In this document: positions 1,447 through 37,674 of the stretch, piece after piece
Position numbering within the stretch: position 1 is the stretch's first letter
How the letters are laid out: each line of letters starts with the position of its first letter
Assembly (NCBI GenBank): GCA_017616655.1
Contig: JAFZXU010000029.1
Span: 1-53,116 of the forward strand
Length of the DNA: 53,116 nucleotides
From: Bacteroidales bacterium
Lineage (GTDB): Bacteria; Bacteroidota; Bacteroidia; Bacteroidales; UBA932
Reading direction: 5' to 3'
The notes under the pieces: generated by a model
The model's input: only the letters and a program-made list of their open reading frames with translations
Databases searched by the model: none
What the model was told of the DNA's origin: nothing
Program-made: the position numbers and the translations under genes

Positions 1447-1950
1447 CTATTTTGAAAGCTGACGGATGTGGCTGAAGCCAGCTAGATACTTACTCTTTCC
1501 CTTAACTAAAAATCTATCGCTGAAGAAGCAGATATCCAGCATTCTCTCTTTGCCTTCATTACTGTTCACCTTAAATCGGAATTCTTTTTCCTTAGACGAG
1601 ATGCTTTTGGAGTCAATCAAAGAAATGCACTGCTGATCCTGCACATCTTCCGGAATAAAAAACTCGGGATGGAAATCAAGAGCATAATCGCTGGTATTGG
1701 TTACCCGAATGATTACTTCGCCACCTTCAGCAGTGATTGTCGTATCAGCAGGGTTTGATTTCAGGCATAATACCATACCCGTTCCACTCAAGATCTTTCC
1801 TCCTTGCTCAACATAATGCACCCAGGCAGCGGAATCCTGGGGAGATAATAATACAAAAAGGTTATCACCATCACCAGGTTCAATGCTATTGTTCTGACAC
1901 CCAGCCAAAACCAAACAAAAGAGTCCAATTAGAAAGATTTTCGTTTTCAT
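1447..1950 (-). CDS. Hypothetical lipoprotein downstream of a C10 protease
   Basis: This 167-residue protein has a lipoprotein signal (MKTKIFLIGLFCLVLAGCQ; lipobox LAGC), so it is expected to be membrane-anchored. The rest is beta-rich with no family I recognise. It follows the C10 protease gene on the same strand by 24 bp, so the two are probably co-transcribed. In Bacteroides fragilis, C10 proteases are found next to small inhibitor genes. A protective role here is possible by analogy, but no inhibitor motif is visible. The base composition is AT-rich, like its partner and unlike the core genes to the right. Confidence 0.75.
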   Translation of the reverse strand: MKTKIFLIGLFCLVLAGCQNNSIEPGDGDNLFVLLSPQDSAAWVHYVEQGGKILSGTGMVLCLKSNPADTTITAEGGEVIIRVTNTSDYALDFHPEFFIPEDVQDQQCISLIDSKSISSKEKEFRFKVNSNEGKERMLDICFFSDRFLVKGKSKYLAGFSHIRQLSK

Positions 1951-1974
1951 TTCAATATTCTTTAATTTTGATTA

Positions 1975-3309
1975 TCAATATGTCCAACCTGTATAAATTG
2001 ACCGCTGATAGGGATAAAAACTATTCTCATCAGTCCAAAAAAGAAAGTAGAATCCTGGCTCGGCACTTCCGCTATTTATATGCCACTCGACATCATCATC
2101 GTAGAAATAGTTTTCTTCAAGTATACTACCATCAATGTCATATATGACTTCGTGAGCGAGAGTATACAATCTGCTGTATCCATCATACAAAAAGCAATGA
2201 CCATAAGTAGCAGTCAAAGAAGCAAGTCCGTCACCGATAACGGGTCTGCCATTAGAGATTTCAGTCATTATGCTACTCCTGGAATAGTTGTTGCAAACAG
2301 CGTTATTGATTCCCATTGAAGCTAATCCTGCCGGAATGAAGAATGACGATGTGGAGCCTTCTCCATCGGAGTAATCGGTAATGGTAACATAGCTCATAAA
2401 CGCTATCAATGCCGCTACAGGTTGAGTTGAATGAAGAATAATGTCACCGTCGTTGAGTGCCATATTATTCCATGAATAAGCAGACAAATTATAAAAACCA
2501 AAAGAATAGGGATGCTGATAATAATAGGAATTACACTCCGCATACGAATATGACTGAGCTGGAACATTGTAAGCGTAGTGGGTATAATACAGAAATTGGG
2601 CCAAAGCGACAGGTACGCATCCTGTCAAACACCTTTCATTTGAATTATATAAAGGGACTGCCGAATTGAATGGCTCCACTGGATGCCATTTGGTTACTGT
2701 TAGGGCCGGATAATGTTGATTGACCAGAGTATCTATTGTATACTCGTACCAAGAATCTAAAGTATCTGGCTCATCGCCATCGCGAGTACCAACCGATTCT
2801 TGTATTGAAAGCAGCTTTGCCGCCTTCCATTTCCTTTGATTATTATTAACCTCCCGGGAATCTGCATTACTTCTGTTCTCAACAATGTTATTGGCTATAC
2901 CTGCCAGCCATCCTTTCACAAACGAGCTATTGCTTGAAGAAAGATTTATGTTGCCTTCTTCGCTATGGGCAATAACCGGTTTATAATCATAATCACCGGA
3001 GATAATGAGCCATCCAGAATCGTTTTTCAGGTTAACTAAAAAAATATGTGCAGAATCTGATAAATCAAGTTTTCTGATACTATGGATTCTATCACCGTCT
3101 ATTTTCTGGAAGAACTTCAAATATGACTTGACATCGTCAATGTCAGGCCCGTCTGAATTTAAAGTTATTATACCAGAGCGTGTAGGCCCTTTTAGTAATG
3201 ACGCATCATTAGTTTGCATTTCCTGTCCATTATTCTCTATTACTTCTGAACAAGAGAAAGTTACAAACAATAGGACAATTAATAACGGATAGAATCTCTT
3301 AGCGGACAT
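1975..3309 (-). CDS. C10 family (streptopain-like) cysteine protease, lipoprotein-type signal
   Basis: This 444-residue protein has an N-terminal export signal ending in FSCSE, probably a lipobox. A long propeptide-like region follows (about residues 25-190). The mature domain carries the C10 catalytic Cys in TGCVPVALAQF (Cys231) and the catalytic His in YGHCFLYDGYS (His371), with family-typical spacing. The expected role is extracellular or surface proteolysis. The propeptide segment (FLVNLKNDSGWLIISGDY, RPVIA-like downstream) matches the Spi/propeptide style of the family. A TACCTTTG -7 element lies upstream at 3369-3376. The gene heads a two-gene operon with the 167-residue lipoprotein. 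Confidence 0.9.
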   Translation of the reverse strand: MSAKRFYPLLIVLLFVTFSCSEVIENNGQEMQTNDASLLKGPTRSGIITLNSDGPDIDDVKSYLKFFQKIDGDRIHSIRKLDLSDSAHIFLVNLKNDSGWLIISGDYDYKPVIAHSEEGNINLSSSNSSFVKGWLAGIANNIVENRSNADSREVNNNQRKWKAAKLLSIQESVGTRDGDEPDTLDSWYEYTIDTLVNQHYPALTVTKWHPVEPFNSAVPLYNSNERCLTGCVPVALAQFLYYTHYAYNVPAQSYSYAECNSYYYQHPYSFGFYNLSAYSWNNMALNDGDIILHSTQPVAALIAFMSYVTITDYSDGEGSTSSFFIPAGLASMGINNAVCNNYSRSSIMTEISNGRPVIGDGLASLTATYGHCFLYDGYSRLYTLAHEVIYDIDGSILEENYFYDDDVEWHINSGSAEPGFYFLFWTDENSFYPYQRSIYTGWTY

Positions 3310-3360
3310 TGTGTTGATGACTTGAATTGTAATGAGTAAGTAGGTATTATTGTAATGATA

Positions 3361-3402
3361 AGTATTAGCAAAGGTAAAAAAAGTATTAGCAAAGGAAAAA
3401 AA
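3361..3402. repeat. Two tandem 21-bp direct repeats upstream of the C10 protease
   Basis: The unit AGTATTAGCAAAGG plus an A-tract occurs at 3361-3381 and again at 3382-3402, with essentially one difference (T/A after AAAGG). The period of 21 bp equals two helical turns. The first copy contains the minus-strand -7 element, so the repeats may be regulator half-sites or a partial promoter duplication. Confidence 0.7.
3369..3376 (-). promoter_or_regulatory. Putative -7 element for the C10 protease operon
   Basis: On the minus strand this reads TACCTTTG, a perfect match to the Bacteroidota TAnnTTTG consensus. It lies about 60 bp upstream of the protease start at 3309. No TTTG is found at the expected -33 spacing, so the call rests on the -7 box alone. 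Confidence 0.45.
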
Positions 3403-4316: not shown

Positions 4317-4880
4317 ATGATAGATAAAGCCAAACAAGTCGTCGCTGCAGCAACGGAAAAGATGACCGACGCGGTGACGCATCTGGATGAATCACTCCAG
4401 AATTACCGTGCAGGAAAGGCAAATCCTGCAGTCTTCAATCCGGTTATGGTGTCGTACTACGGCACTATGACTCCGCTCCCGCAGACCGCCAGCATCACCG
4501 CTCCGGACGCGAAGACGATTCTCATCCAGCCTTGGGACAAAACCCTCATCAAGGTTATCGAGAAGGCGATTATGGATGCGAACCTCGGCTTTACCCCGCA
4601 GAACAACGGCGAGATGATCCGCATCAACGTGCCCGCCCTCACCGAGGAGCGCCGCCGCGAGCTGGTCAAGAAGTCCAAGGGCGAAGGCGAGAACACCAAG
4701 GTCAGCATCCGCACCGCCCGCCGCGAGGCTATCGAAGTCCTCAAGAAGATGATCAAGGACGGCCTTCCCGAGGATGTCGAGAAGGATTGCGAGGACGAGG
4801 TCCAGAAAGAAACCGACAAGTACTCCAAGAAGGTCGAGGAGCTCCTCGCCGCAAAGGAGAAGGAGATAATGACCGTCTAG
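4317..4880 (+). CDS. frr: Ribosome recycling factor
   Basis: This 187-residue protein is the usual length of RRF, which with EF-G splits post-termination ribosomes. It shows the family N-terminal helix ([25 protein letters not shown]), the central domain ([20 protein letters not shown]) and the C-terminal basic helical segments ([25 protein letters not shown], which includes the conserved VSIR-x-x-RR motif). It is in an operon with pyrH. Its last 32 bp (4849-4880) are repeated perfectly at 6103-6134. Its TAG stop shares the palindrome CTAG with the stop of the convergent GH43 gene. Confidence 0.97.
4849..4880 (+). repeat. Left copy of the 32-bp direct repeat (native frr 3' end)
   Basis: The last 32 bp of frr, from CCGCAAAGG to GACCGTCTAG, recur without mismatch at 6103-6134. 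The left copy is in frame and completes frr (ending AKEKEIMTV). It also supplies the stop codon of the convergent GH43 gene. Confidence 0.97.
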
Positions 4881-6055
4881 TCAAGTTTTTTCTTTCGCAT
4901 TTTGCGAAAATAAATACAATATTCCTTGATATTCCAGGTGTCCATCCATTCGAGGTACGGAGTTCCGTCGGCATCGAACTGGATGGGCAGCCATATATAG
5001 CGCGCGTCGATCGGGTGGCGGGGGCGCCAGATGTCGGCCATGAAGATGAAGAGGTCCTTCTTGCCCGGGACGGGCAGGATGTAGGTGCTCTGTCCGCCGT
5101 AGGTGATTTCAGACTGGTCTCCACGGCAGGGGTTCGGATGCTGCTTCCAGGGGCCGAAGATTGACGGTGCGGAGAACAACCGGGCCGCGTTCGGGGCCCA
5201 GCCCGTGCAGCCGGAAGTGATCATCCAGTAAGTCCCGTTCCGCTTGAAGATGGCGGGCGCTTCGTTTTGGCCGGCCGGAGCGACACGGACATAGCGGCCG
5301 CTGTGGGAAAGGTAGTCGTCCGAGAGTTCGGCGATGTTGAGGGTCATGTTCTCTTCCGAAGCGTAGATGTGGTAGGCCTTCCCGTCGTCATCCACGAACA
5401 GGGTCATGTCCCGGGCCATCTGGCCTCCCTCGAAATCCCGTTTGAAGAACAGGCCCTTCGAAACGGCTGTCAGCCATTCGGGCGTCCACTCCTTGGGCGT
5501 TTCCGGGAGCGCATCGAAGTAGGCAAGATCCTTTTCCGTTACGTTCTCGGCCATGATGCCAGGATTCACACGGTCGGAACCCAGGTAGGTGAAGGGGCCG
5601 GCGGGGGAGTCGCTCACAGCGACGCCGGACCGGGCCGCACTGTACCCTTTTCCTTTGAGCTCAAGGTGGAACCACATGACATATTTCCCGGTCTTCCGGT
5701 TGAAGATGACTTTCGGACGTTCCAGGACGCATCCTCGCGTGATCTCGCTCTCGGGATCGTCGGACACGCTGAGGGCCACGCCCTCGTATTTCCAGTTAAC
5801 AAGGTCCTTGGATGAATAGCAGGTTACTCCCACAAGGGCTCTGCTGGTATTCTCGCTCTTGTGTTCGCCGTACCAGTAGAAGGTCCCGTCATGGACGAGG
5901 ATTCCGCCGCCGTGGGCGTTGATATGCTCTCCTCGGTCGTCCGGCCAGTTTTCGCCGGACCGGATGGGCTGATAGGTGTAGGGGGAGCAGGCGAAAGCCC
6001 CCATCGCGGCCAACAGGGCTGCGATGGGGATTAACCGGTGAAAGAACAGTTTCAT
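4877..6055 (-). CDS. Glycoside hydrolase family 43-like surface lipoprotein
   Basis: The protein has 392 residues from the ATG at 6055 ([15 protein letters not shown]), with a lipobox-type signal ending AMGAFAC. An ATG-like extension to 6076 is unlikely because it would cross the -7 box. The body reads as a five-blade beta-propeller of the GH43 type. It has [20 protein letters not shown] near the N-terminus, the repeated blade motif [23 protein letters not shown], and late [14 protein letters not shown]. Substrate cannot be read from sequence. The gene is inserted between frr and the BPL_N gene, flanked by 32-bp direct repeats, and uses a stop codon inside the left repeat. It has its own -7 box at 6074-6081. 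Transfer as a one-gene cassette is the simplest reading. Confidence 0.88.
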
Positions 6056-6073
6056 AATCAGTGATTTATCCTG

Positions 6074-6081
6074 CAAAGATA
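6074..6081 (-). promoter_or_regulatory. Putative -7 element for the GH43 gene
   Basis: The minus-strand sequence TATCTTTG matches TAnnTTTG and lies 18 nt before the ATG at 6055. It sits inside the inserted segment, so the cassette carries its own promoter. No correctly spaced -33 TTTG is seen. Confidence 0.5.
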
Positions 6082-6102
6082 GATTGCCGCAGAATCCCCT
6101 TT

Positions 6103-6134
6103 CCGCAAAGGAGAAGGAGATAATGACCGTCTAG
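6103..6134 (+). repeat. Right copy of the 32-bp direct repeat (displaced frr 3' end)
   Basis: This is a perfect copy of 4849-4880 that is not part of a functional frr. It lies 1,254 bp from the left copy. Its CTAG contains the stop codon of the leftward BPL_N gene (6131-6133). This implies that frr and the BPL_N gene were once directly tail-to-tail, sharing the same CTAG. Confidence 0.95.
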
Positions 6135-7843
6135 CGTCCCTTGAATATATCAGGTATTTCGGGCATCTTCGTAGCCGTAGAGTCGGCTTCGAAGATGCTG
6201 TCGTAATAGACCGTACCTGAAGCGTTCAGGCAGTCTGTGCCATCCACCTCTTCCAGCGCGTTCAGGTAGCAGAACATAAAGGAAGCGGTGCGGTTGGTGT
6301 AGATTTCGGCCGCAGGCGAGGAGACGGTAATGGTGGCAGTGGCCTCGTCCCAGGAGGCGTATATCGGCGCCGAGCCGCGTTCGCTCACGAGGGTTCCGGC
6401 CGCCGAAGGGTCGTTGGCGCGGAACACTATCCTGCGTATCAGCGAATCCCTCGAAATCTTCCTCACTCCGGGGGTGAATCCGGGCGAGGCGAGGCCCTTG
6501 ATTATCTCGTTGAAGTCGCTTCCGGTGCGCAGAACGGCCTTCTGGCCGGCACTGAAGCCGCTTTTCCAGCTGACGCTTATCTTATAGGGAGCGCCGTTGA
6601 GGACCGCGGTGCGGCCGACATAGTTGATGCCGTGGTTGCCGTAGAAGTTGGAGACGGCATCCTCGCACTGTACCCCGATATACCAGGTGCCGGCCTCCAG
6701 GGTGTCGAAGCGGAGTTCCTTGACGCTCTCGCCGTTCTCAACGGCATACTGCGCATCCTCCATGAAGGCAAAAGTGCCTTCTACGAGCCTCAGGCTCAGG
6801 TTGAATTCCTCTCCGGCCTCCAGGCGGATGCGGATGTCACGCGCCCCCTCAGGCAGGCCGAAGACGAAGTGGTGGCACTGCCTGTCGCCTATCCTGGCGT
6901 GTGCGGGGTCGTCTTCGTTGGAGTACTTGTCCATAATGCGCGTATCGCCGTTTCGCAGCACCGCCTTGACCCTGGCGTAGCCTATGCCATCCAACGCATA
7001 CTTGACCAGGGCGGCCATGAAGTCGCGCCTCTCGCCCTCCTTATACTGCTCCGGATGGCCTCCGCAGGGGATTACGCGGCCGGTCGCGGCCGATGCCTTA
7101 TAGGCTATGACTGAGGGCAGAAGATGATACTTGTATGCGGGATAATCGTTTATAGCGAGCACCTCCGTTCCCGGAACGGCGTCGTAGAACTCGAAGTAGG
7201 GGCCGTTCCAGTGCTTCATGCTGTCCACCCTGCGGTCGCCTCCGAAGTCATAATAGCGCAGCAGCGGGCTGGTCTCGGGCAGGATGTAGGTTGGATAGAT
7301 GTCGTATACATCGGTATTGTTGGCCAGGCCGGGCCAGAGGCCGAGATAGCCGTTGTTGGTGTAGCCACCGTTCTCCACGAGGCCGTCGCAGGCCACGAAG
7401 GCTCCCGCGCAGGAACCCACATAGCTTCCTCCCTCCTCCACGAACTGCCTGAAGCGGTCGCGTCCCGTCGCGGTGAGGCTGCGGCCGTGGTAGGAGGCGA
7501 GGCCGCCGTTCACATAGACCATCCTGTATCTCGGAGCGCCGTCAGGATAGAGCAGGATGCCGTTCAGGTCCTCCGGCGAGCCGCAGAAGAAACGCTTCTG
7601 GATCTCCATATTCTCCGCCGTGGTCTCCGGGCAGAATAGGGTCTCGGTGCTGAGATTGAGATAATCCGTCACCGGCATCGTCCTGTAATCCGACATCTCG
7701 ATGCCGGTATCCATCAGAAGGTCCTTGTAGAAGGCCTTGTTGGGTACGTCGGTGCGGATTGTGACGGATACTTCCTGCGCCGAAAGGATTGTCGCACAGA
7801 GAAGCAGCGCCACCGAAAGCGAGGGGCGGAGTATGGATTTCAT
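6131..7843 (-). CDS. Exported BPL_N-type (class I glutamine amidotransferase-like) protein
   Basis: This 570-residue protein has an N-terminal signal peptide (LRPSLSVALLLCATILSAQ). The first half resembles the BPL_N family, a class I glutamine amidotransferase-like fold. It has VYVNGGLASYHG, the nucleophile elbow VGSCAGAFVA (Cys145) and a conserved His in CGGHPEQY. The second half is beta-rich (LEAGEEFNLSLRLVEG, LEAGTWYIGVQ), as in PPC-type secreted C-terminal domains. The substrate is unknown. The pgk start lies downstream in gene order, and the 13-bp gap to the pgk stop suggests one transcript. Its stop overlaps the displaced frr end. Confidence 0.8.
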   Translation of the reverse strand: MKSILRPSLSVALLLCATILSAQEVSVTIRTDVPNKAFYKDLLMDTGIEMSDYRTMPVTDYLNLSTETLFCPETTAENMEIQKRFFCGSPEDLNGILLYPDGAPRYRMVYVNGGLASYHGRSLTATGRDRFRQFVEEGGSYVGSCAGAFVACDGLVENGGYTNNGYLGLWPGLANNTDVYDIYPTYILPETSPLLRYYDFGGDRRVDSMKHWNGPYFEFYDAVPGTEVLAINDYPAYKYHLLPSVIAYKASAATGRVIPCGGHPEQYKEGERRDFMAALVKYALDGIGYARVKAVLRNGDTRIMDKYSNEDDPAHARIGDRQCHHFVFGLPEGARDIRIRLEAGEEFNLSLRLVEGTFAFMEDAQYAVENGESVKELRFDTLEAGTWYIGVQCEDAVSNFYGNHGINYVGRTAVLNGAPYKISVSWKSGFSAGQKAVLRTGSDFNEIIKGLASPGFTPGVRKISRDSLIRRIVFRANDPSAAGTLVSERGSAPIYASWDEATATITVSSPAAEIYTNRTASFMFCYLNALEEVDGTDCLNASGTVYYDSIFEADSTATKMPEIPDIFKGR

Positions 7844-9137: not shown

Positions 9138-9235
9138 AGGAAAGTCTGAGAATTGTACTATTATTATAATTTGCATGACAAATGGAGGAGGCTAAAGCTA
9201 CATATCGGGGATATGTTACATTTTATCAGATTATA

Positions 9236-10096
9236 TCAATTATCATATACTATTATGGGAAGAATGATTTTACTTAAGTCAGTGTTATTAGAATATACTT
9301 TAAGGTAACAGGCGACATCACGAAAAAAATCACTGTCAGAAATACGACTGACAACCTTTTGCGGAACAGCTGTAGTGAAGCTGTTATTGTAATCAATTGA
9401 ATCGGCATAATAAATGGTGTCGTACACAGGAAAATGAAATGACGTAGAATCACACATAGGATAATACTCTACAATAGCTTTAACAGGGAAAAATCGCTTT
9501 CTCTCTGTCGGATAGAGTTTCTTTTTATATAGATATACTTTCGAGTAATTAGCGCTAATACTATCTATCAACCTCGCTAATTGGGCATATTGGAAGTTAA
9601 AAATGTATTGTCCCTTGGAATTAAACACAGCTGGTGAGGGTTCATAGATTAATTTATGCTCTAGATAAGATTCAGGATTATTAATCCAAAATAGAGGATG
9701 CCCATACACACAACAACCAACTCTCTTTCGAGGCGAGTAAATAAAGATTGAGTCTCCGTAATATGCAAATCTCAGTCTATTCTTTTTGAGAATATCGACA
9801 TAATCATTACCCGAATCGTCGAAATAATCATAGCTGGTCGAATCCTGCTTTTTCCATTCATTTAAGAAATCGGTAATATCAGAAATACTTGAAGGAAGGG
9901 CATAATTACATCTTGAATAGAAATCGACAATACTATTAAGCTCTGACGAACACTCGTGTTTTTTTGCTTTTTGCCTAATGCTCTCCTTATTGCTGCAGCA
10001 ACCCCCTAAAAGCATTACTAATACTGCAACAATTGAAGCACTCTTAAGGGAAAAGATTTTGAATCGCTTTTGAAAACTTGTTTGCATTTTCCTCAT
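9236..10096 (-). CDS. Hypothetical lipoprotein following an RHS C-terminal cassette (candidate immunity protein)
   Basis: This protein has 286 residues from the ATG at 10096, with an alternative ATG at 10087. It has an N-terminal hydrophobic stretch and a lipobox (SIVAVLVMLLGGCC), so it is probably lipid-anchored. The rest, rich in Tyr and Ser, matches no family I know. Its start overlaps the 3' end of the RHS gene by about 45-50 bp, the tight coupling expected of a toxin and immunity pair. It is strongly AT-rich, like the RHS C-terminal region and unlike the RHS core. The immunity role is inferred from position only. Confidence 0.65.
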   Translation of the reverse strand: MRKMQTSFQKRFKIFSLKSASIVAVLVMLLGGCCSNKESIRQKAKKHECSSELNSIVDFYSRCNYALPSSISDITDFLNEWKKQDSTSYDYFDDSGNDYVDILKKNRLRFAYYGDSIFIYSPRKRVGCCVYGHPLFWINNPESYLEHKLIYEPSPAVFNSKGQYIFNFQYAQLARLIDSISANYSKVYLYKKKLYPTERKRFFPVKAIVEYYPMCDSTSFHFPVYDTIYYADSIDYNNSFTTAVPQKVVSRISDSDFFRDVACYLKVYSNNTDLSKIILPIIVYDN

Positions 10097-11459
10097 CAAA
10101 ATTTATCTGTAATACCTCGTATTCATGGTTGTTGCTTAATATCAAAAAGAACCCTTCCCAACGCGTAGAATTAAAAGGACCGAACTTGATCTCTTTACTC
10201 TTTTGGGGCATCTGTTGTATGTGTAGCTGATTATTCTCTCTATTGTTTTTTGCTCTATAAAAAGTTCCACTCTCTTTTCCGTATTTACTTTTAAAGGATT
10301 TTCCTTCATAGCAGAATAAGTATTCCTTAGGCGTCATGCCGAAGTAAAAGTCTTCATGCGCTTCGCCATCTCCTTTTGTGTAAGCTTTAATAATGATCTT
10401 ATCAATCCTCTGATACAATAATCCATTTAGCAATAACTTTCCTTCTTTGTTTTTTAGAGGTACTTTATTACCAAACAAAGAATAATATGTATTATCTTTA
10501 ACAAAAGTGTATCCCAAATGCGTATAATTACCATTTTTCAATTCACCGTCGCTTAGTTTGTGATCAAAATACACATAGTCTATTACACCATTATCATTCT
10601 TTTCATACCAATCAAGTCCATATGGATCCACAAAGTTCACCGGATCATTCCCACAATAGTTATACTGGGTGAAGCTGGTGTATTTGTCCGCCATCGGGTC
10701 CTGCTGCAGCCAGCGACCGATGACAGGGTCATAGAATCTTGCTCCGAAGTCAAGATAGGGTGCTAGGCCTGTAGAGATGTTCTGCCGTTCCTTGCCGCTG
10801 AAGCCATAGCGGTTGCTTGAAAGGGTAGGGAATGTCGAGTTCGGATGCTTGACGCCAAATGGATAGTAGTCACTACGTTCTACTACTGCATTGTCAGTGA
10901 CAATAACCCTGACACTTCCCAGATGGTCTGTTACATACTTCCTGACGGTCAAGCCCGTTCCACTGGCCTCAATCCTTCCTCCTGCATATGGTGCGCTCTC
11001 GAATGAGTAGCTGGCGCTATCTTCCTCTTCATCTTCAGGGCCCCGTAGATTGACATTCTTTGCCACCTTTATATAAGTGCCTGTCGTATCCCGCCATCTC
11101 TTTGCCGTAGCGTTCGCGCCCCTGCTTTCATCCCCCGGGCCGCCAGGCTCTGCGACAGGTTCCTGCAGATTAAAGACTATATCTCCCAGCCAGGCGAGCC
11201 CCAGCCCTGTCTCCTCGCGGTGCAGGGCCACCTTGGTGCCGTCGGCAAGGTAGTCGTAGAACACCATCAAGTCGCTCTGCCCGTCGTTGAACCACGATGG
11301 AAGATTAAGTATGTTGTAGCCTATGGCCATACCTCTTGCCGCATCTCCGGTGACGTTGCCGTTCTTGTCGTATGTTATGCCTCTTTCGTTCCAGGCATTG
11401 GAAGAAGCCGTGAAACGATTATATATAACCACAGGATCCTGCTGGAATAGTATCGTCAT
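10044..11459 (-). pseudogene. RHS core fragment with variable C-terminal domain (displaced RHS-CT module)
   Basis: The 471-residue frame begins inside an RHS protein: YDKNGNVTGDAARG and FYDYLADGTKVALHR are YD-repeat-type segments, and there is no signal peptide. It contains the RHS-associated core end (YGFSGKERQ, LDFGARFYDPVIGRWLQQDP, YNYCGNDPVNFVDPYG). After DPYG an unrelated AT-rich C-terminus of about 190 residues begins (DWYEKNDNGVIDY...), the usual place for a polymorphic toxin domain. I cannot name its activity. A stop codon lies in frame just before the nominal ATG, so the N-terminal part of the gene is missing. The ATG at 11459 lies in the 3' end of the preceding lipoprotein gene. Confidence 0.75.
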
Positions 11460-12093
11460 GCTTATCTAAATAATGATAACGGTTTATGCTGTTCTGCTTA
11501 ATAGAGGGATTGTTTTTTTCAAAGTAGTGAATATCTCTTTTTGAAAAGACTGGTGCAAGAGTCAGTTTATAAAACTGAAAATCATTCTGCAGTATATCTA
11601 ATTCTTCTGGAGAATGATAGAAGCAATCAGGCCTAGTTAAGATAATAATAAAATAGCGGGGCACTCTCTTGAACTTATATACAGTGCCGAAGTCAGTCTC
11701 CTTATACTTGTCAAGGAAATCATAATAGAGATAACGCAATGAGATATCTTCGTTATACTGCGGATAAAGGAAACCATTATGGCGAATATCTTTTACAGCA
11801 ACACAAAAATTGTTCAAAAAAAGCGAGGACAATGCATTCTCAAAGTCATCTACAGTATACATCCAATAGACATATTTACTTTTTGTTAAGTCTTGCTCAT
11901 ATAATGAATCTAATAATCTTTCAGAAGAAACATATATAGCAGAGTCCGATTGAATGACTATAGGATTGTCTATAGAAAGATTATCGATTATATATGAGTA
12001 AGGGATATTGTTAGGGAAAAAAAACGATTCCTCCCTGCATCCTAAAATAGCAGTCATTGTCAACAATAACAGAACTACCGAACGGTTATTCAT
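11419..12093 (-). CDS. Hypothetical lipoprotein paired with an RHS-type metallopeptidase domain
   Basis: This 224-residue protein has a lipoprotein signal (VVLLLLTMTAILGCRE). The middle is AT-rich and not recognisable. Its start overlaps the stop of the preceding HExxH-domain fragment by 4 bp (ATGA), which supports translational coupling and a partner or immunity role (inference). The last residues (DTIPAGSCGYI) are encoded by RHS core DNA read in another frame. The natural C-terminus was therefore probably replaced when the RHS fragment was joined here. Confidence 0.65.
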   Translation of the reverse strand: MNNRSVVLLLLTMTAILGCREESFFFPNNIPYSYIIDNLSIDNPIVIQSDSAIYVSSERLLDSLYEQDLTKSKYVYWMYTVDDFENALSSLFLNNFCVAVKDIRHNGFLYPQYNEDISLRYLYYDFLDKYKETDFGTVYKFKRVPRYFIIILTRPDCFYHSPEELDILQNDFQFYKLTLAPVFSKRDIHYFEKNNPSIKQNSINRYHYLDKHDDTIPAGSCGYI

Positions 12094-12482
12094 TTGAAAA
12101 AACTCTTTAGATAATCAATAAATGTTTGTTTATATATTGTTTGGCCATGTCCTTTTTCAATGATATCATTAATAGTGCCCTGAGTAATGCTGGTGTCATC
12201 AATAACCTTAGGACGATAATCTCTCATTAAACCTTCATTAGCGTGTCTATCCTGGTCGTCTATGGGATTGTTCCCGCCTAATGAATGTATCATTTCATGT
12301 GCAATGGAGTAATAATCATCATCAGACTTATTGCCAATAGTTATTAATCTATGATTTACTGGAGATGTACCTGCTAGGGCATTGCCTTTTTTTCCGACAT
12401 ATTCTTTTGGGGACAAGTCAATACGGTTGTAATCAGACGAAGAAAAGATGTCATTAATATTTATTAATGAGATTTGCTCAGA
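12090..12482 (-). pseudogene. Orphan RHS C-terminal domain with HExxH metallopeptidase motif
   Basis: An open frame runs from about 12482 to 12090 with no good start. The only candidate is a TTG at 12416, and residues upstream of it (NDIFSSSDYNRIDLSPKEY) continue in frame. It encodes YYSIAHEMIHSLGG, a clear HExxH zinc-peptidase motif, followed by DDQDRHANEG, which could supply further ligands. Such domains occur as RHS toxin tips. It lies directly behind the RHS N-terminal fragment but in a different frame, with the RHS repeat body missing. It may be untranslated, or read through a frameshift. The lipoprotein gene overlaps its stop by 4 bp. Confidence 0.65.
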
Positions 12483-12751
12483 TTATTGAAAGAATAATCC
12501 AGAGAGACCGGTATTTCGAAATCTTCGTCCTTATATGTGTATATCGGCAGCGAATATTGAAATGTTCCCGTATATAGCGATGGCGTCAGATTGCCGTACT
12601 TCGTCATTTCAAAGGCCTGTGCCGACGGACGGATGTTAGCATTGTAGCTGAACGGGTCTGTGTCCTGGGCGTAACTATATTTCGAGCCAAAGAGGACGAT
12701 GAATATGAATAAGAACCACCGTCTAAAAGAATAATAACAAGATAAAGCCAT
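12464..12751 (-). pseudogene. N-terminal fragment of an RHS family protein
   Basis: This 95-residue remnant has a signal peptide (FLFIFIVLFGSKYSYAQ) followed by the typical Bacteroidota RHS N-terminus (TDPFSYNANIRPSAQAFEM, GNLTPSLYTGTFQYSLPIYTYK, FEIPVSLDYSFN). The similarity breaks after YSFN, and the frame closes a few codons later. The bulk of an RHS gene, normally thousands of bases, has been deleted, joining the N-terminus to the HExxH cassette out of frame. It is unlikely to be functional. Confidence 0.8.
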
Positions 12752-13099
12752 ATTATTGCGATAGGTTGTTTCAAAGGTAATGATTTATACCAAAAGATAC
12801 AATTGACGTTAGGTTGTCGTATTCCCTTTCCGGGCAAAGTGGAGCAGGATAGTAAAATGTAACTTGTTGATTATCAGGATTCTTTTGCGGAAGAATCTGC
12901 TCCACGTGCCAAGTAAGGACTATGGAGTAGGTGGCCAAAAGCTAACCGTCTGATTATTAGTTTTTTACAAATGGCGAGTCTGCTCCATTTTGCCCAAAAC
13001 ACCTAAAAGAAACGACTTTCAGCCGGAGACGATACTCTGGAGTATCGCGAAGGCGCGGAAAGCCATAATAGCGAAGTTTTTGGTATATTTGCATTCGTT
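12752..13099. other. Intergenic region with MITE-like inverted repeats
   Basis: No gene is visible in this stretch. GGGCAAAGTGGAGCAG at 12832-12847 and CTGCTCCATTTTGCCC at 12980-12995 form an inverted repeat with one mismatch over 16 bp. They bound a 164-bp segment. A third partial copy (CTGCTCCACGTGCC) lies at 12897-12910. This looks like a miniature inverted-repeat element or a transposon remnant. No clear target-site duplication is visible. The 3' part of the region carries the promoter of the methyltransferase gene. Confidence 0.5.
13084..13091 (+). promoter_or_regulatory. Putative -7 element, possibly leaderless start
   Basis: TATATTTG is a perfect TAnnTTTG and ends 8 nt before the ATG at 13100. 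Transcription would start at or within a base or two of the start codon, so the mRNA may be leaderless. No -33 TTTG is seen at the consensus distance. Confidence 0.5.
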
Positions 13100-19955: not shown

Positions 19956-21362
19956 ATGAAAAAGTTGCTTTCAACAATATCCGTTTTGACGGTAGCGTTA
20001 TTTGCGTTTGTTTCCTGCGAACAGACCAGCTACCTCTATGAGCCGACCAACGAGTGCCTGACATTCAGCGCAAACAGCGGCGCCTGGCTCTTTACCGACG
20101 AGCCCGTCATCGAGTTCCAGCTCATACGCGGCGTAATTACCAGCGACCTTACGGTCGATCTGACCCTGTCGGGTGACGATCTGTTTGCCCTTGCCACTCC
20201 TTCACAGGTCCATTTTGCGGCAGGTGAGTCGACGGCGACCGTACGGGTCGGATACGACGTCGATCAGGCGGAGCCCGGCTCTTCCTACGGTTTCACTGTT
20301 TCCTTCGACGAGAAGATGGTCTCGCCGGCCGGATGGAACGTCTTCACCGGAACCATGTCCATGCCCGGAGGCGATGATTCCGAATTCGTGGACTACGCGA
20401 CCGTGGAGTTCTACCAGGGCAAGATGAACAGTTCCGTCAACCTGTATGACGAGAAATACTCTACACTTCAGGTCTCCAAGTATGACAAGACCAAATACCG
20501 TATCCGCAACGCGATGAATTCAGGCATCGACCTCGACTTCACGCTTGCATCCGACGGAATAGTCTATCTGCTCAACGAGACCACGGAATGCCCGTACGAC
20601 AACGAGCAGTACATCAAGATTCCCAGTACGATAGAGTACAATGGCGAACTGGTCACCTTCTGGCTTGATCCGAACCCTAAGTACAACAAGGTGGACGCCA
20701 ATATCGGTACCGGCGAATATACCATGGACATGACTTCGAACGGCGGTACTTCCATTACCTGGTACGTATGGATGGAGACGGCTTCGAAGGGCATCCTGAA
20801 GTTCTCCGACACCGACGACGGATGGTGGCGCATGTACTACGACGTGGTGAACATGAGCCCCAGGCCGAACCCTGACGCCGATTATATGCGTCTGGGCAAG
20901 GTGGAGTTCTACCAGGGCAAGATGAATGCGAGCGTCACCTCCGAGAAGGTGAAGCATTCCACACTGCTGGTCAACAAATACGACCCGACCCGCTACCGCA
21001 TCAAGAATGCCATCAATTCCGACATCGACCTCGACTTTACGCTGGCTTCCGACGGAGTGGTCTATCTGCTCAACGAAACCACCGAATGCCCGTACGACAA
21101 CGAGCAGTACATCAAGATTCCGAGTTCCATCATATACGACGGGGAGCCGGTCACCTTCTGGATCGACCCGAACCCGAAGTACAACAAGGTGGACGCCAAC
21201 ATCGGCACCGGAATGTACACGATGGACATGACGCCGAACGGAGGCACCTCCATTACCTGGTATGTCTGGATGGAGACGGCGTCGAAGGGCATCCTGAAGT
21301 TCTCCGATACCGACGACGGATGGTGGCGCATGTATTATGACGTGACGGAAGTCTATTACTAG
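19956..21362 (+). CDS. Surface lipoprotein with two tandem near-identical domains (SusE-position)
   Basis: This 468-residue lipoprotein (signal ends AFVSCEQ) is in the SusE position of the operon. The N-terminal about 140 residues look like a beta-sandwich (VHFAAGESTATVRVGYDV). Two copies of a domain of about 150 residues follow, each starting VEFYQGKMN and ending DDGWWRMYYDV. The DNA copies begin at 20403 and 20901 (498-bp period) and are highly similar, so the duplication is recent or under conversion. Aromatic clusters (SITWYVWMETASKG, DDGWWRMYY) could bind ligand. It is probably a surface glycan- or ligand-binding accessory protein (inference). Confidence 0.85.
   Translation: MKKLLSTISVLTVALFAFVSCEQTSYLYEPTNECLTFSANSGAWLFTDEPVIEFQLIRGVITSDLTVDLTLSGDDLFALATPSQVHFAAGESTATVRVGYDVDQAEPGSSYGFTVSFDEKMVSPAGWNVFTGTMSMPGGDDSEFVDYATVEFYQGKMNSSVNLYDEKYSTLQVSKYDKTKYRIRNAMNSGIDLDFTLASDGIVYLLNETTECPYDNEQYIKIPSTIEYNGELVTFWLDPNPKYNKVDANIGTGEYTMDMTSNGGTSITWYVWMETASKGILKFSDTDDGWWRMYYDVVNMSPRPNPDADYMRLGKVEFYQGKMNASVTSEKVKHSTLLVNKYDPTRYRIKNAINSDIDLDFTLASDGVVYLLNETTECPYDNEQYIKIPSSIIYDGEPVTFWIDPNPKYNKVDANIGTGMYTMDMTPNGGTSITWYVWMETASKGILKFSDTDDGWWRMYYDVTEVYY
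20403..21347 (+). repeat. Intragenic tandem duplication of about 450 bp
   Basis: Segments about 20403-20849 and about 20901-21347 are strongly similar at DNA and protein level. They share runs such as YDNEQYIKIPS, KYNKVDANIGTG and GILKFSDTDDGWWRMYYDV. The offset is 498 bp. Differences are mostly at third codon positions, with scattered replacements near the start of each copy. Confidence 0.9.
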
Positions 21363-34101: not shown

Positions 34102-34208
34102 GTGGTGATTAAGTGGCTGAGTATCAGGTGATAGATAAAAGTCATCCCCCTCGCCGGAGGGGGATGACTTTTAATAATTAGCTGTAAACCAGCGAGTTAA
34201 TCACCACG
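34102..34208. repeat. Palindromic element with 11-bp terminal inverted repeats
   Basis: GTGGTGATTAA (34102-34112) and TTAATCACCAC (34198-34208) face each other around a 16-bp-stem hairpin. The same 107-bp arrangement recurs at 37450-37556, with one base changed in the left terminus. It could be a REP- or MITE-like element carried inside the larger repeat. Confidence 0.6.
34137..34172. terminator. Bidirectional hairpin terminator (left copy)
   Basis: AAAAGTCATCCCCCTC pairs perfectly with GAGGGGGATGACTTTT over 16 bp around the loop GCCG, with A and T tracts on the two sides. It can stop transcription from both directions. The copy at 37485-37520 has loop CGGC. Confidence 0.85.
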
Positions 34209-34236
34209 CGTTGCTGTGGAAGCCTCTACCAGCGCA

Positions 34237-34326
34237 CTACAGCCCATAGACGTCGCGGTAGAAGTCCTTCAGCTTGAGGTCGGTCTCCTTGTTGAGGTCG
34301 TAGATCAGCTGGACGTCGACGTTGTT
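34237..34326 (-). pseudogene. 3' remnant of a C69/C45-like Ntn hydrolase gene
   Basis: It encodes only the last 29 residues (from NNVDVQLIYDLN to FYRDVYGL) and the stop. The peptide is identical to the C-terminus of the intact gene at 37585-38868. The two base differences in the coding part are synonymous. There is no start or upstream part. Confidence 0.9.
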
Positions 34327-34389
34327 ACGCATTTGTTTAAAGTTTTTCGTCATTTTTGTAAAAATCGGCAATTATATATTGGACAGAGG

Positions 34390-34950
34390 ATGAAAGAAGA
34401 GGAACTGGTTTCACTGTGCAGACAGGGCGACAGGGCGGCTTTTGCGGCTCTGTTTAGGGAGTACTCGCCGGTTTTGATGGGAGTGTGCCGGCGCTATACA
34501 GTGCAGGAAGAGGATTCCAGGGAAGTTCTCCAGGAGGGATTTGAAAAGATTATTGAAGGATTCAGCCGGTTCGAGTATCGTGGGGAGGGTTCCTTAAGAG
34601 CCTGGATGTCAAGGGTGATGATGAACCGTTCTCTGGCATACATGAAGAAAAAGCGGCGGACGGAGTATTTGAATGAGCCGTTGTATGATAATCTGATTGA
34701 AGATCCGGTAATGGTCGAAAGTGATGATCCAGAGACCGGGCACATTCCGGAGGAGGTGATGATGGGGTTCATAATGAATCTGCCGCCCGGATGCAGGACA
34801 GTCCTGAATATGTATCTGTTCGAAGAACTTGACCACAGTGAGATAGCGGAAACGCTCAACATATCGAAAGAGGCTACAGCCGCCCGGCTTTACAGGGCGC
34901 GGACGCTGTTGAAAGGGATGATTGGAAACTATTTAAAAAATGGAAAATGA
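34390..34950 (+). CDS. ECF (sigma-70 family) RNA polymerase sigma factor
   Basis: The protein has 186 residues from the ATG at 34390; upstream codons are antisense to the Ntn-hydrolase remnant. Region 2 is visible in FAALFREYSPVLMGVCRRYTVQEEDSREVLQEGFEKI and SLRAWMSRVMMNRSLAYMKKKRR. Region 4 is visible in LPPGCRTVLNMYLFEELDHSEIAETLNISKEATAARLYRAR (described by its key parts). Sigma factors of this type are usually held by a membrane anti-sigma encoded next door. The next gene starts within the sigma stop codon. Confidence 0.93.
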   Translation: MKEEELVSLCRQGDRAAFAALFREYSPVLMGVCRRYTVQEEDSREVLQEGFEKIIEGFSRFEYRGEGSLRAWMSRVMMNRSLAYMKKKRRTEYLNEPLYDNLIEDPVMVESDDPETGHIPEEVMMGFIMNLPPGCRTVLNMYLFEELDHSEIAETLNISKEATAARLYRARTLLKGMIGNYLKNGK

Positions 34951-36110
34951 TGTCAGACAAATTCTTGGAATCGGTTAAAGAAAAGGCGAAGGACATCCGA
35001 AGCGAGGTTCCGAAGGAGATGTTCGATGCCATATGGGAGAATGTCGGCAAGAAGCGCGCACAACGTCGATTATTTGGCTTCATTACAGCAGCGGCAGCTG
35101 CTTCCGCCGCTTTTTTGGCGGTCATCCTGACTGTTTCGCCGAAAGAGAGTCTGATTCCGGAACTGCCTGGTGACACGGTTCAGGCTTCATCCTACACGGA
35201 GCCCGTTTCGGAAGATGCCGAAAGCTCAACTGAAACTGTGGGCACAATACCGTTGACAAAGGCGGTCGCCGATAAACAAGTTGCTATTAATCAGTCAATA
35301 GAGCAATCTGCAATAACGTATCAAGAACGACCAACTCAAGAGTCAACTGTAGCTGTAGAAACAGATACTGGCCATCCTGAAAAGGCAAATCCGGATAACG
35401 GCAGAACATTCGATAGCGAATATTTGGCACAGTTCTTTGACCCCGAAAAAGAACAGCCGAATCGCAGAAAAATACATATATCTGTATCTGGATCGACACC
35501 TGGTATCGGTAATAAAGCTGACGGAATTGTTTTATTCAATAAGAACTCAGGCGTGCTGAATCCTGCTACTATAGGTCTAGGTTCTTTGATCTCTATATAC
35601 GAGCCAGATAATAATCAAGATAATACTATGGAGTATCGCCACCGTATGCCTGTCGATCTGAGGCTTATGGTTTCCGCTGATATCGCAGACAGATTATCTG
35701 CAGAAGGAGGCATCTCCTATTCTTATCATCATACCTCCTTTATTGTTGACTCGTCATATCCTTTCCGTCAGCATTTGCATTTCATCGGTATCCCGGTCGG
35801 ACTCAGATTTGTATTCCTGACATTCAAACACTCTTCTCTCTATGCAAAAGTTGGAGGAGAAGTCGAAAAATGCATATCCGGCAGTATTGTCAATGAGACG
35901 AATAAAAATAGGGAAAGACTTGAAATAGAGCCTTTATTCTGGTCTGCGGAGGCATCTGTCGGCGCACAAGTCGGAATAGCCGGGCCCTTGTATCTCTTTG
36001 CAGAGGGAGGCGGCTCCTATCATTTCGACAACGGCACCGGCAATATCACCTACTATGGCGCACATCCCTTGATGTTCTCGCTCCAGGCCGGTCTCAGGAT
36101 AGGGCTATAA
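34947..36110 (+). CDS. Anti-sigma-like protein fused to a beta-barrel domain
   Basis: This 387-residue protein has three zones. A cytoplasmic N-terminus (SDKFLESVKEKAKDIRSEVP, about 45 residues) precedes one transmembrane helix (FITAAAAASAAFLAVILTV, about 44-63). A low-complexity periplasmic stretch runs to about 175. The C-terminal about 200 residues look like an outer-membrane beta-barrel (YRHRMPVDLRLMVSADIADR, HFIGIPVGLRFVFL, SLYAKVGGEVEK, ...FSLQAGLRIGL). The order with the overlapping ECF gene (ATG inside the sigma stop) suggests an anti-sigma factor. The barrel could let one protein span the whole envelope. Confidence 0.72.
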   Translation: MMSDKFLESVKEKAKDIRSEVPKEMFDAIWENVGKKRAQRRLFGFITAAAAASAAFLAVILTVSPKESLIPELPGDTVQASSYTEPVSEDAESSTETVGTIPLTKAVADKQVAINQSIEQSAITYQERPTQESTVAVETDTGHPEKANPDNGRTFDSEYLAQFFDPEKEQPNRRKIHISVSGSTPGIGNKADGIVLFNKNSGVLNPATIGLGSLISIYEPDNNQDNTMEYRHRMPVDLRLMVSADIADRLSAEGGISYSYHHTSFIVDSSYPFRQHLHFIGIPVGLRFVFLTFKHSSLYAKVGGEVEKCISGSIVNETNKNRERLEIEPLFWSAEASVGAQVGIAGPLYLFAEGGGSYHFDNGTGNITYYGAHPLMFSLQAGLRIGL

Positions 36111-36197
36111 AACGGTTCGCAATAGTATTTTTAAAGTTGTTAAAATAATGAAAACAATCTACCATAAACAAGAAATAATTAACAGAATAATAGAAAT

Positions 36198-37445
36198 ATG
36201 AGATCACATTATTGTACGATAGGATTATGCTTGCTGCTTGTTATCACATCTTGTAACAATTCTAACAACGACTGGATGCCAAGTGAAAACCGACTCATCA
36301 ATCCTAATGCCTGCATAGAGTTGACTCGCGCGGAGAAGAAGATAGCTGCAAAGGATTTGGATTTCGGAATCGATATGTTTAAGCATCTTGCAAAAGAAAA
36401 CGGAAAGGATGAGAATTTTCTTTTTTCTCCATTCAGCGCATCTCTCGCTTATGCGATGCTTTCCGCAGGAGCTGAAGGCAAGACCAGGAAAGAAATTGTT
36501 GACGCTCTTGGGTTTAGTGGATTCGAGTATGCCGATATGGCTTCCTATTACAAGAAACTAACGGAAGGAATGATAGCCTCCGATAAGAAAGTAGAGTTAT
36601 CTTTTGCTAATGCGGTATGGGCTGGAGGAAATATAAAGCCCGACTATGTAGATGAGGTACATAACAATTACAATGCAGAAATCAACGAAGTGGATTTCTC
36701 CAAAACAAAAGAGTCCGCTGTTATAATAAATGAATGGACATCAGATAAAACACATGGTTTGATTCCATCTATAGTCAACGAACAGAGTTTGAAAGGCACC
36801 GTGATGATGATTGAAAACGCTCTTTATTTTAAGAGCCAATGGAGTGAAGGTGTTTATTTTGCCCAAAAAATGTCATTTACCAACTCGTCAGGTAAGACGT
36901 CACAATGCAGTTCGTTTACCAATCAGGAGCCGAAATACTATTATTCGTTATTTGATGACAATGTTTCCGTGCTAAAGATACCATATTCACCATCGTTCAA
37001 TATGATGTTCGTTTTACCCGGGAAAGGCGTGGATATCAATAAGTTCATTTCTACCCTTGACGGACAGAAATGGGACAAATGGAGTGCCTCGTGTACCAGC
37101 CATAAAGTCTGCTTTGAAATCCCTTGTTTCGAAGACGGCAGTTCGATGGATCTGAAGAGTTCTCTAAATGACCGGGGAATGAAGATTCCCTTTACCCCTC
37201 GGGCAGATTTCAGCAAAATGACGGATTTCGCTCTGTTTGTTACAAATTCGGCGCAGAAAACATATATAAAAGTATCTGAAAACGGAACAGAAGCAGCGGC
37301 GGCAACAACAGTGGGAATGGGTCTTACTTGGGCAGGACCTGACAATCAGCAAGAGTACTATTTCATCGCCGACCGGCCCTTCCTCTATGCCATCGAGGAG
37401 GCTTCGACCGGAACGCTGCTGTTCATTGGAGCACACGTGAAATAG
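36198..37445 (+). CDS. Serpin-family protease inhibitor, lipoprotein
   Basis: This 415-residue protein has a lipobox signal (GLCLLLVITSCNN) and a full serpin fold. It shows NFLFSPFSASLAYAMLSAGAEGKTRKEI, MMIENALYFKSQW, and the C-terminal RPFLYAIEEASTGTLLFIGAHV. The reactive-centre hinge GTEAAAATT (363-371) is the inhibitory consensus. By canonical counting P1 is Thr377 in GMGLTWAG, but the distal loop is about six residues longer than in alpha-1-antitrypsin, so P1 is uncertain. It follows the sigma/anti-sigma pair by 87 bp. It may protect the cell from its own secreted proteases or from host proteases (inference). Confidence 0.92.
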   Translation: MRSHYCTIGLCLLLVITSCNNSNNDWMPSENRLINPNACIELTRAEKKIAAKDLDFGIDMFKHLAKENGKDENFLFSPFSASLAYAMLSAGAEGKTRKEIVDALGFSGFEYADMASYYKKLTEGMIASDKKVELSFANAVWAGGNIKPDYVDEVHNNYNAEINEVDFSKTKESAVIINEWTSDKTHGLIPSIVNEQSLKGTVMMIENALYFKSQWSEGVYFAQKMSFTNSSGKTSQCSSFTNQEPKYYYSLFDDNVSVLKIPYSPSFNMMFVLPGKGVDINKFISTLDGQKWDKWSASCTSHKVCFEIPCFEDGSSMDLKSSLNDRGMKIPFTPRADFSKMTDFALFVTNSAQKTYIKVSENGTEAAAATTVGMGLTWAGPDNQQEYYFIADRPFLYAIEEASTGTLLFIGAHVK

Positions 37446-37448
37446 CCC

Positions 37449-37674
37449 CGTGGTGGTTAAGTGGCTGAGTATCAAGCAATAGATAAAAGTCATCCCCCTC
37501 CGGCGAGGGGGATGACTTTTAATAATTAGCTGTAAACCAGCGAGTTAATCACCACGCGTTGCTGTGGAAGCCTCTACCAGCACACTACAGCCCGTAGACG
37601 TCGCGGTAGAAGTCCTTCAGCTTGAGGTCGGTCTCCTTGTTGAGGTCGTAGATCAGCTGGACGTCCACGTTGTT
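37449..37674. repeat. Right copy of the 226-bp direct repeat (native 3' end of Ntn hydrolase gene)
   Basis: This counterpart of 34101-34326 lies 3,348 bp away. It includes the terminator at 37485-37520 and the true C-terminal codons of the Ntn-hydrolase gene. Together the two copies bracket the sigma, anti-sigma and serpin genes. Confidence 0.95.
37485..37520. terminator. Bidirectional hairpin terminator (right copy)
   Basis: This has the same 16-bp stem as at 34137-34172, but the loop is CGGC instead of GCCG, as if the hairpin had been inverted. It lies between the serpin and the convergent Ntn-hydrolase gene and can serve both. Confidence 0.85.

Follow-up and report, generated by a model that had tools for sequence, protein, structure and literature searches.

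Tyrosine-recombinase integrative elements insert at gene 3' ends, e.g., those of tRNA genes, where a core of a few tens of bp leaves the gene intact. An integron cassette consists of one gene plus one recombination site. A further process, insertion with long target duplication, is reportedly the subject of Nobusato et al. 2000 (Gene 259:99-108). The passages on this process that were available to us concern Helicobacter restriction-modification genes, with restriction-modification cargo appearing there as a frequent association and not as a requirement (PMC1643837, PMC3031569, PMC4978471, PMC3154945, PMC2869330). One of these sources also deals with transposed genes of Arabidopsis, i.e., single genes lying between direct repeats of a genic target, for which its authors favour the insertion of circles by homology, the circles deriving from tandem repeats within one genome (PMC2869330).

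The DNA analyzed here (the window) is a stretch of 53,116 nucleotides that constitutes contig C68 of a 2.09-Mb Bacteroidales genome, represented by a single draft assembly of 73 contigs (93.2% complete, 4.61% contamination). Within it, a GH43 gene lies between two copies of the 3' end of frr. Judged by its anatomy, this insert appears to match insertion with long target duplication, with a new cargo and a new host. As in the passages on that process, the site is empty in one genome (here G019), direct copies of the target surround the insert, and there is no transposase of its own; the target is single in G019 and doubled directly on both sides here, at 32/32 identity. Unlike the Helicobacter cases in those passages, the cargo is GH43 rather than restriction-modification, the 32 bp end exactly at a stop codon, the host is a different type of bacterium, and a companion insert (on contig C27) seems to bring its own gene end. 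With the Arabidopsis transposed genes, as far as the source describes them, our locus shares a single gene flanked by direct repeats of a genic target, but it belongs to a bacterium rather than a plant and the gene has no close kin in the genus.

A core that measures a few tens of bp and lies at the end of an intact gene is also a property of 3'-end integrative elements, and the C27 insert resembles their gene-end replacement; unlike those elements, our inserts have no integrase and carry one or two cargo genes only, with no reuse of the frr end. As in integron cassettes, a single gene with a single recombination site is a possible unit, but here nothing looked like an array or an integron platform, the repeat is the coding end of a host gene, and the cargo has its own promoter-like box. 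Insertion sequences and composite transposons do not fit, as no transposase was present among the ORFs of the insert, the repeat search found no inverted repeat joining its two ends, and the duplication is 32 bp long. A partial survey of titles and abstracts on frr as an integration site, on duplicated gene ends and on single-gene inserts in Bacteroides did not return this type of locus.

Anatomy of the frr locus

The final 32 bp of frr (4849-4880) occur a second time at 6103-6134 with 0/32 mismatches, at a spacing of 1,254 bp, so that perfect copies surround a single GH43 gene, as had been proposed in a sequence-only reading of the window. By our own estimate, the probability that a 32-mer recurs exactly by chance at a distance of a few kb in the window is ~1e-11. 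The repeat may extend to 44 nt at 89% identity, with 7/12 of the added bases matching. The features of the locus are as follows:

4317..4880, plus strand: frr, ribosome recycling factor, with its 3' end duplicated (PF01765, 212 bits; ORF)
4849..4880, plus strand: left 32-bp copy, the native frr 3' end, whose CTAG doubles as the GH43 stop (repeat search)
4877..6055, minus strand: GH43 gene (PF04616)
4881..4918, no strand assigned: the 38-bp left arm of the insert (26% GC)
6056..6102, minus strand: right arm of the insert, with the promoter-like TATCTTTG at 6074-6081 (sequence)
6103..6134, plus strand: right 32-bp copy, which supplies the BPL_N-like gene with its CTAG stop (repeat search)
6131..7843, minus strand: BPL_N-like gene (marginal PF09825 match)

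The BPL_N assignment is marginal, with a Pfam profile score of 25.4 bits against a cut-off of 24.2. When 4881-6134 was removed in silico, GTCTAG was joined directly to CGTCCC, which is the layout of G019; the claim that this deletion would leave frr tail to tail with the BPL_N-like gene on a common CTAG holds. Because the two genes share this CTAG without spacing, an insertion must duplicate the junction in order to keep both of them whole. The GH43 gene is the only gene encoded by the insert, and the 1,254 bp contain no recombinase and no integrase, relaxase or fragment of either. Nor was a recombinase found on contig C68, the four places in the genome with PF00589 being on C7, C28, C43 and C10.

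The left arm contains an inverted repeat, TTTCGCA-TTT-TGCGAAA (4893-4909), and only 8/200 shuffles folded into an equally good hairpin. A terminator was considered for this arm and none was returned by the terminator scan; the palindrome had no other occurrence in 40 genomes of the genus with up to 3 mismatches allowed. The Bacteroides -7 consensus is TAnnTTTG. The minus-strand sequence at 6074-6081 in the right arm resembles this box and we take it to be promoter-like, in line with the earlier claim of a -7 box within the insert.

The GH43 gene is a clear member of its family (PF04616, 90.2 bits against a cut-off of 32.2), presumably of subfamily GH43_24, and has a signal peptide that by eye is of the lipoprotein type. 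It starts at the ATG at 6053-6055, the ORF list beginning instead at a TTG at 6076, and its TAG stop is supplied by the CTAG of the left repeat copy, so that the stop codon is indeed borrowed from the repeat as first supposed. Nucleotide homology to relatives spans 4919/4920 to 6012. Because the gene has lost its usual stop, which is followed by 38 AT-rich bases, the protein gains 13 residues and ends in the repeat. The closest relative of solved structure is 6eug (named beta-glucanase; E 4e-153), and galactan 1,3-beta-galactosidases are also among the solved matches.

Matches to the gene at E ≤0.001 were found in 84/299 genomes of the family search, and within the genus, apart from the gene itself, the matches were weak (best 1.2e-9). 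The nearest relatives, at 80-85% protein identity, are in G249 (L033), where the gene sits among other glycosidase-type ORFs, in RGIG3197 (L062), an assembly from goat reticulum, and in RUG12336 (L063). Comparison with the L062 gene gave a dN of 0.118 and a dS of 0.931, values that show the gene to be under constraint. Its GC3 (0.768) equals that of host genes (0.767-0.783), and the donor may therefore be close. Relatives of GH43 do occur on plasmids (25 records), none of them close, since the best reached 69% identity (a Phocaeicola massiliensis record); one phage record contained a relative (43% identity), and none of the viral contigs encoded one. GH43 as a habitually repeat-flanked gene was rejected, as loci L033-L141 had no frr-like end at ≤3 mismatches. 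Some repeat pair of at least 18 bp was present at 14 of these loci, several being simple or paralogue repeats by eye, and the pair at L095 (5580/7597) does bracket the GH43 gene of that locus.

The frr junction in related genomes

In all 40 genomes of the genus (40/40) frr is present, G019 being the closest relative among the genomes examined (frr 89% identical). There, the frr stop runs directly into CGTCCC and the BPL_N-like gene, with 82% amino acid identity to that of the window, ends on the same CTAG, tail to tail. This is the empty junction for which a search among relatives had been advised. The case of relatives all carrying GH43 at this position without a second frr-end copy, named in advance as fatal to the idea of an insertion, did not arise, since neither GH43 nor the repeat lies beside frr in any of 29 genus loci (L026 extending only 278 bp downstream). 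One weak BPL_N-like match beside frr was seen at L004 (40% over 98 aa).

G019 differs from the 32-bp repeat at 1/32 positions and most relatives at >3. At silent sites frr has diverged from that of G019 with a dS of 0.61, yet the two repeat copies in the window are identical. With ~35 free sites by our count, copies older than ~0.086 substitutions/site would be free of mismatches <5% of the time. The direction of change would be a gain here rather than a loss in G019. The frr locus represents a young event, and its empty site is clean.

A degenerate frr 3'-end pattern, with 1 mismatch allowed, was matched in 269/398 genomes of the family, and a pattern of the same type, with 2 mismatches allowed, in 131/198 genomes of an order sample (the 129 and 67 unmatched genomes, respectively, are uninformative). 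Among the matching genomes of either set, a nearby second copy of the frr end was present in our genome only. In G024, frr is present as two whole genes on separate contigs, and G452 of the order sample has a second pattern match that lies on another contig and does not end in a stop. The 14-mers of the last 40 frr bases did not recur within the 6.4-18.9 kb of downstream sequence in 20/20 relatives (of 39), and no larger element was found at the frr end in these 20 relatives or in the 269 family and 131 order genomes. The frr end was absent from viral contigs (exact scan for the degenerate frr end) and from phages, and three plasmid matches at E 0.6 are at chance level. The 3' end of frr thus does not behave as a recurrent site in these sets. 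The sequence-only reading had advised looking for other single-gene inserts between frr 3'-end copies, and none turned up in the 269 and 131 matching genomes. Its broader picture of a minimal cassette at a gene 3' end fares better in part: the empty site, the one gene, the lack of a recombinase and comparable inserts in the genome speak for it, and the failure to find another insert at the frr 3' end speaks against it.

Comparable inserts elsewhere in the genome

Pairs of repeats of 26-120 bp were surveyed in 1.60 Mb (~77%) of the genome after the removal of dispersed families. Near-perfect unique pairs numbered seven at a distance of 0.4-6 kb (two of them being one family on C66) versus three at 6-39.6 kb, even though the latter class offers 2.9 times as many pair positions; close pairs are therefore in excess. 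A looser survey gave 12 pairs in the same 1.60 Mb, several of them dispersed or coding repeats, 2 pairs in 348 kb from 20 relatives, and 3 pairs in 80 GH43 loci totalling 967 kb. A peak of repeat length at 32 bp was dismissed, as it consists of three pairs only and is insignificant alone. The candidate inserts are the following:

L205:12168-14519, contig C39: two-ORF insert at the transketolase 5' end, 34-bp copies with 2 mismatches
L194:10987-14134, contig C27: C10 peptidase and serpin insert at the apbE 3' end, 43-bp copies with 1 mismatch
L233:7993-10504, contig C31: C10 peptidase and 304-aa ORF, repeats of 25 bp exact or 32 bp with 1 mismatch
contig C50: PARG domain and 218-aa ORF, exact 32-bp repeats
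L247:11013-12259, contig C61: PD-(D/E)XK family gene (PF12784), exact 23-bp repeats
L206:6875-12771, contig C43: PF00589 integrase gene in 5.9 kb, exact 23-bp repeats

Two of these repeat-bounded inserts, on C39 and C27, have empty sites in G019. The 34-bp repeat on C39 spans a promoter-like box and the ATG of the transketolase gene, and the first inserted ORF begins at the copied ATG. The copies bracket 2.3 kb with a GC content of 0.40 (flanks 0.58-0.59), and the two ORFs (579 and 171 aa) matched no Pfam family. At the empty site, the flanks are separated by 35 bp in G019 and by 76 bp in G027. A homologue (54% aa) is present elsewhere in G019. In a homologous pair of genes in G019, identity reaches 97% over the final 34 bases of the second gene, the genes being otherwise 66-69% alike.

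The C27 insert has a GC content of 0.39 between flanks of 0.57-0.58, and the fumarase and apbE regions adjoin in G019, which also lacks a 162-aa ORF present next to the insert here. The end now joined to apbE encodes ADTLAGVNLILIGE (36% GC, an AT-richness comparable to that of the insert), which is close to ADTLPGVEVILIGE of G019, and the displaced apbE end encodes ADSLPETRVILIPPL (51% GC, with 49% in G019). The two ends are identical at 21/45 positions, the first of which are inside the core, and the core itself at 42/43; the joined end matches G019 at 31/45 and the displaced end at 25/45. This pattern suggests that the insert may have carried its own version of the apbE gene end, as 3'-end-integrating elements do, and by composition the displaced end would be the native one. 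As the joined end is the nearer to G019 (31 vs 25 of 45), that it is foreign is something we only infer. Simple local duplication followed by decay is unlikely at C27, because the divergence starts sharply at the core.

The inserts on C31, C50 and C61 are of similar appearance, but no readable empty site was found for them in six relatives. The C31 insert has a GC content of 0.37 in surroundings of 0.57, and its right flank was not found in the six relatives. On C50, the left copy overlaps a repeat that occurs elsewhere on that contig, and the C61 insert adjoins REP-like repeats. Rpn-like nucleases (PF12784 at C61) were set aside as the agent, a passage search of PMC5350276 on joints and repeats having returned nothing of use. 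The 23-bp repeats on C43 look like a tRNA 3' end by eye, and ARAGORN detected no tRNA in this stretch.

In the window itself, 3.9 kb (9150-13076) are absent from G019, where the flanks are 72 bp apart, and no end repeat longer than 8 bp was found. The pattern therefore does not extend to every insert. This stretch is AT-rich (GC ~0.35 in much of it) and lies between pgk and a methyltransferase-type ORF, with one ORF that is RHS-like by eye. An AT-rich pair, a C10 peptidase gene with an I69-type inhibitor domain (PF01640, PF13734) and a 167-aa ORF, occupies 1447-3309, for which the survey found no flanking repeat; relatives of this peptidase family are also in the C27 and C31 inserts. The window further contains two 21-bp units in tandem (95%) upstream of pyrH at 3360-3401, several exact copies 498 bp apart at 20403-21334, and exact direct copies of 77 and 71 bp, 3,348 bp apart, at 34157-37665.

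Origin of the GH43 insert

What we observe is the repeat, the empty site, a single gene without close kin in the genus, and two comparable inserts with empty sites. Our best explanation, to which we give a probability of about 0.45, is that a small, horizontally acquired, integrase-less gene cassette was added at the frr end and left 32 bp on both sides. The most probable mechanism would be that a circle with one copy of the gene end recombined with the chromosome at the 32-bp core, the activity for this step being provided in trans, either by a recombinase encoded elsewhere or by short-homology recombination. Duplication of the junction would have left frr and the BPL_N-like gene intact and allowed GH43 to take its stop from the duplicated end. 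The genome would then contain several inserts of ~1-3 kb that lack an integrase, the GH43 insert among them. Against such a cassette we count the lack of a recombinase in the insert or on its contig, the absence of reuse of the frr end, and the equality of the copies with the local frr, as local duplication predicts.

That last point belongs to a serious rival, which we nevertheless hold to be on the doubtful side, in which a long-staggered break at the end of frr took up a foreign GH43 fragment during fill-in repair, the repeat being host DNA duplicated in place, with no cassette or attachment site involved. Both copies equal the local frr end (1/32 from G019, >3 from most relatives), the site is not recurrent, and the other inserts vary in target and in repeat length, all of which would suit local repair. 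The frr locus alone does not decide between recombination of a circle and fill-in repair. The frr copies fit a repeat made by local target duplication; the dissimilar apbE ends at C27, with their abrupt divergence at the core, do not, and the location of the inserts at gene ends is also left unexplained by repair. It is because of C27 that we prefer the cassette. A stronger version of the cassette reading, which we consider unlikely, would make these inserts a family of integrase-less cassettes of ~1-3 kb, with one or two exported-looking genes (lipoprotein signals by eye), cores of 32-43 bp at gene ends, some with a substitute gene end, and an unnamed enzyme acting in trans; three cores of 32 bp (exact on C68 and C50, one mismatch on C31), i.e., three helical turns, would reflect a fixed stagger.

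The insert might instead be the remnant of a larger tyrosine-recombinase integrative element at the frr 3' end, stripped to one cargo gene. A 32-bp core located at the 3' end of a gene is typical of these elements, and the same genome has the 5.9-kb C43 stretch with a PF00589 gene between 23-bp repeats; with no trace of integrase or relaxase across the 1,254 bp, viral contigs and phages devoid of the frr end (plasmids giving chance-level matches), and no larger element at this position in the relatives examined, we regard this as quite improbable. Import by homologous exchange from a near relative that already had GH43 beside its frr end would agree with the host-like GC3 of the gene, but the arrangement is absent from the 29 genus loci and such an exchange merely shifts the first insertion to another genome, which makes it a very unlikely origin. 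Less likely still is an artefact of this metagenome-type assembly; the single draft, its 73 contigs and its 4.61% contamination leave some room for one, but a false join needs real sequence linking GH43 to frr ends on both sides, the GC3 of GH43 is host-like, and for two similar inserts at other places in this assembly G019 shows the empty site.

Bacteria also gain single genes with no transposon, integron or integrase involved, by routes that are poorly understood. The frr locus together with at least two more inserts, one of which has unlike target-gene ends, makes such a route of gene gain testable, and extends a pattern known from restriction genes to surface-type sugar hydrolase and protease genes.
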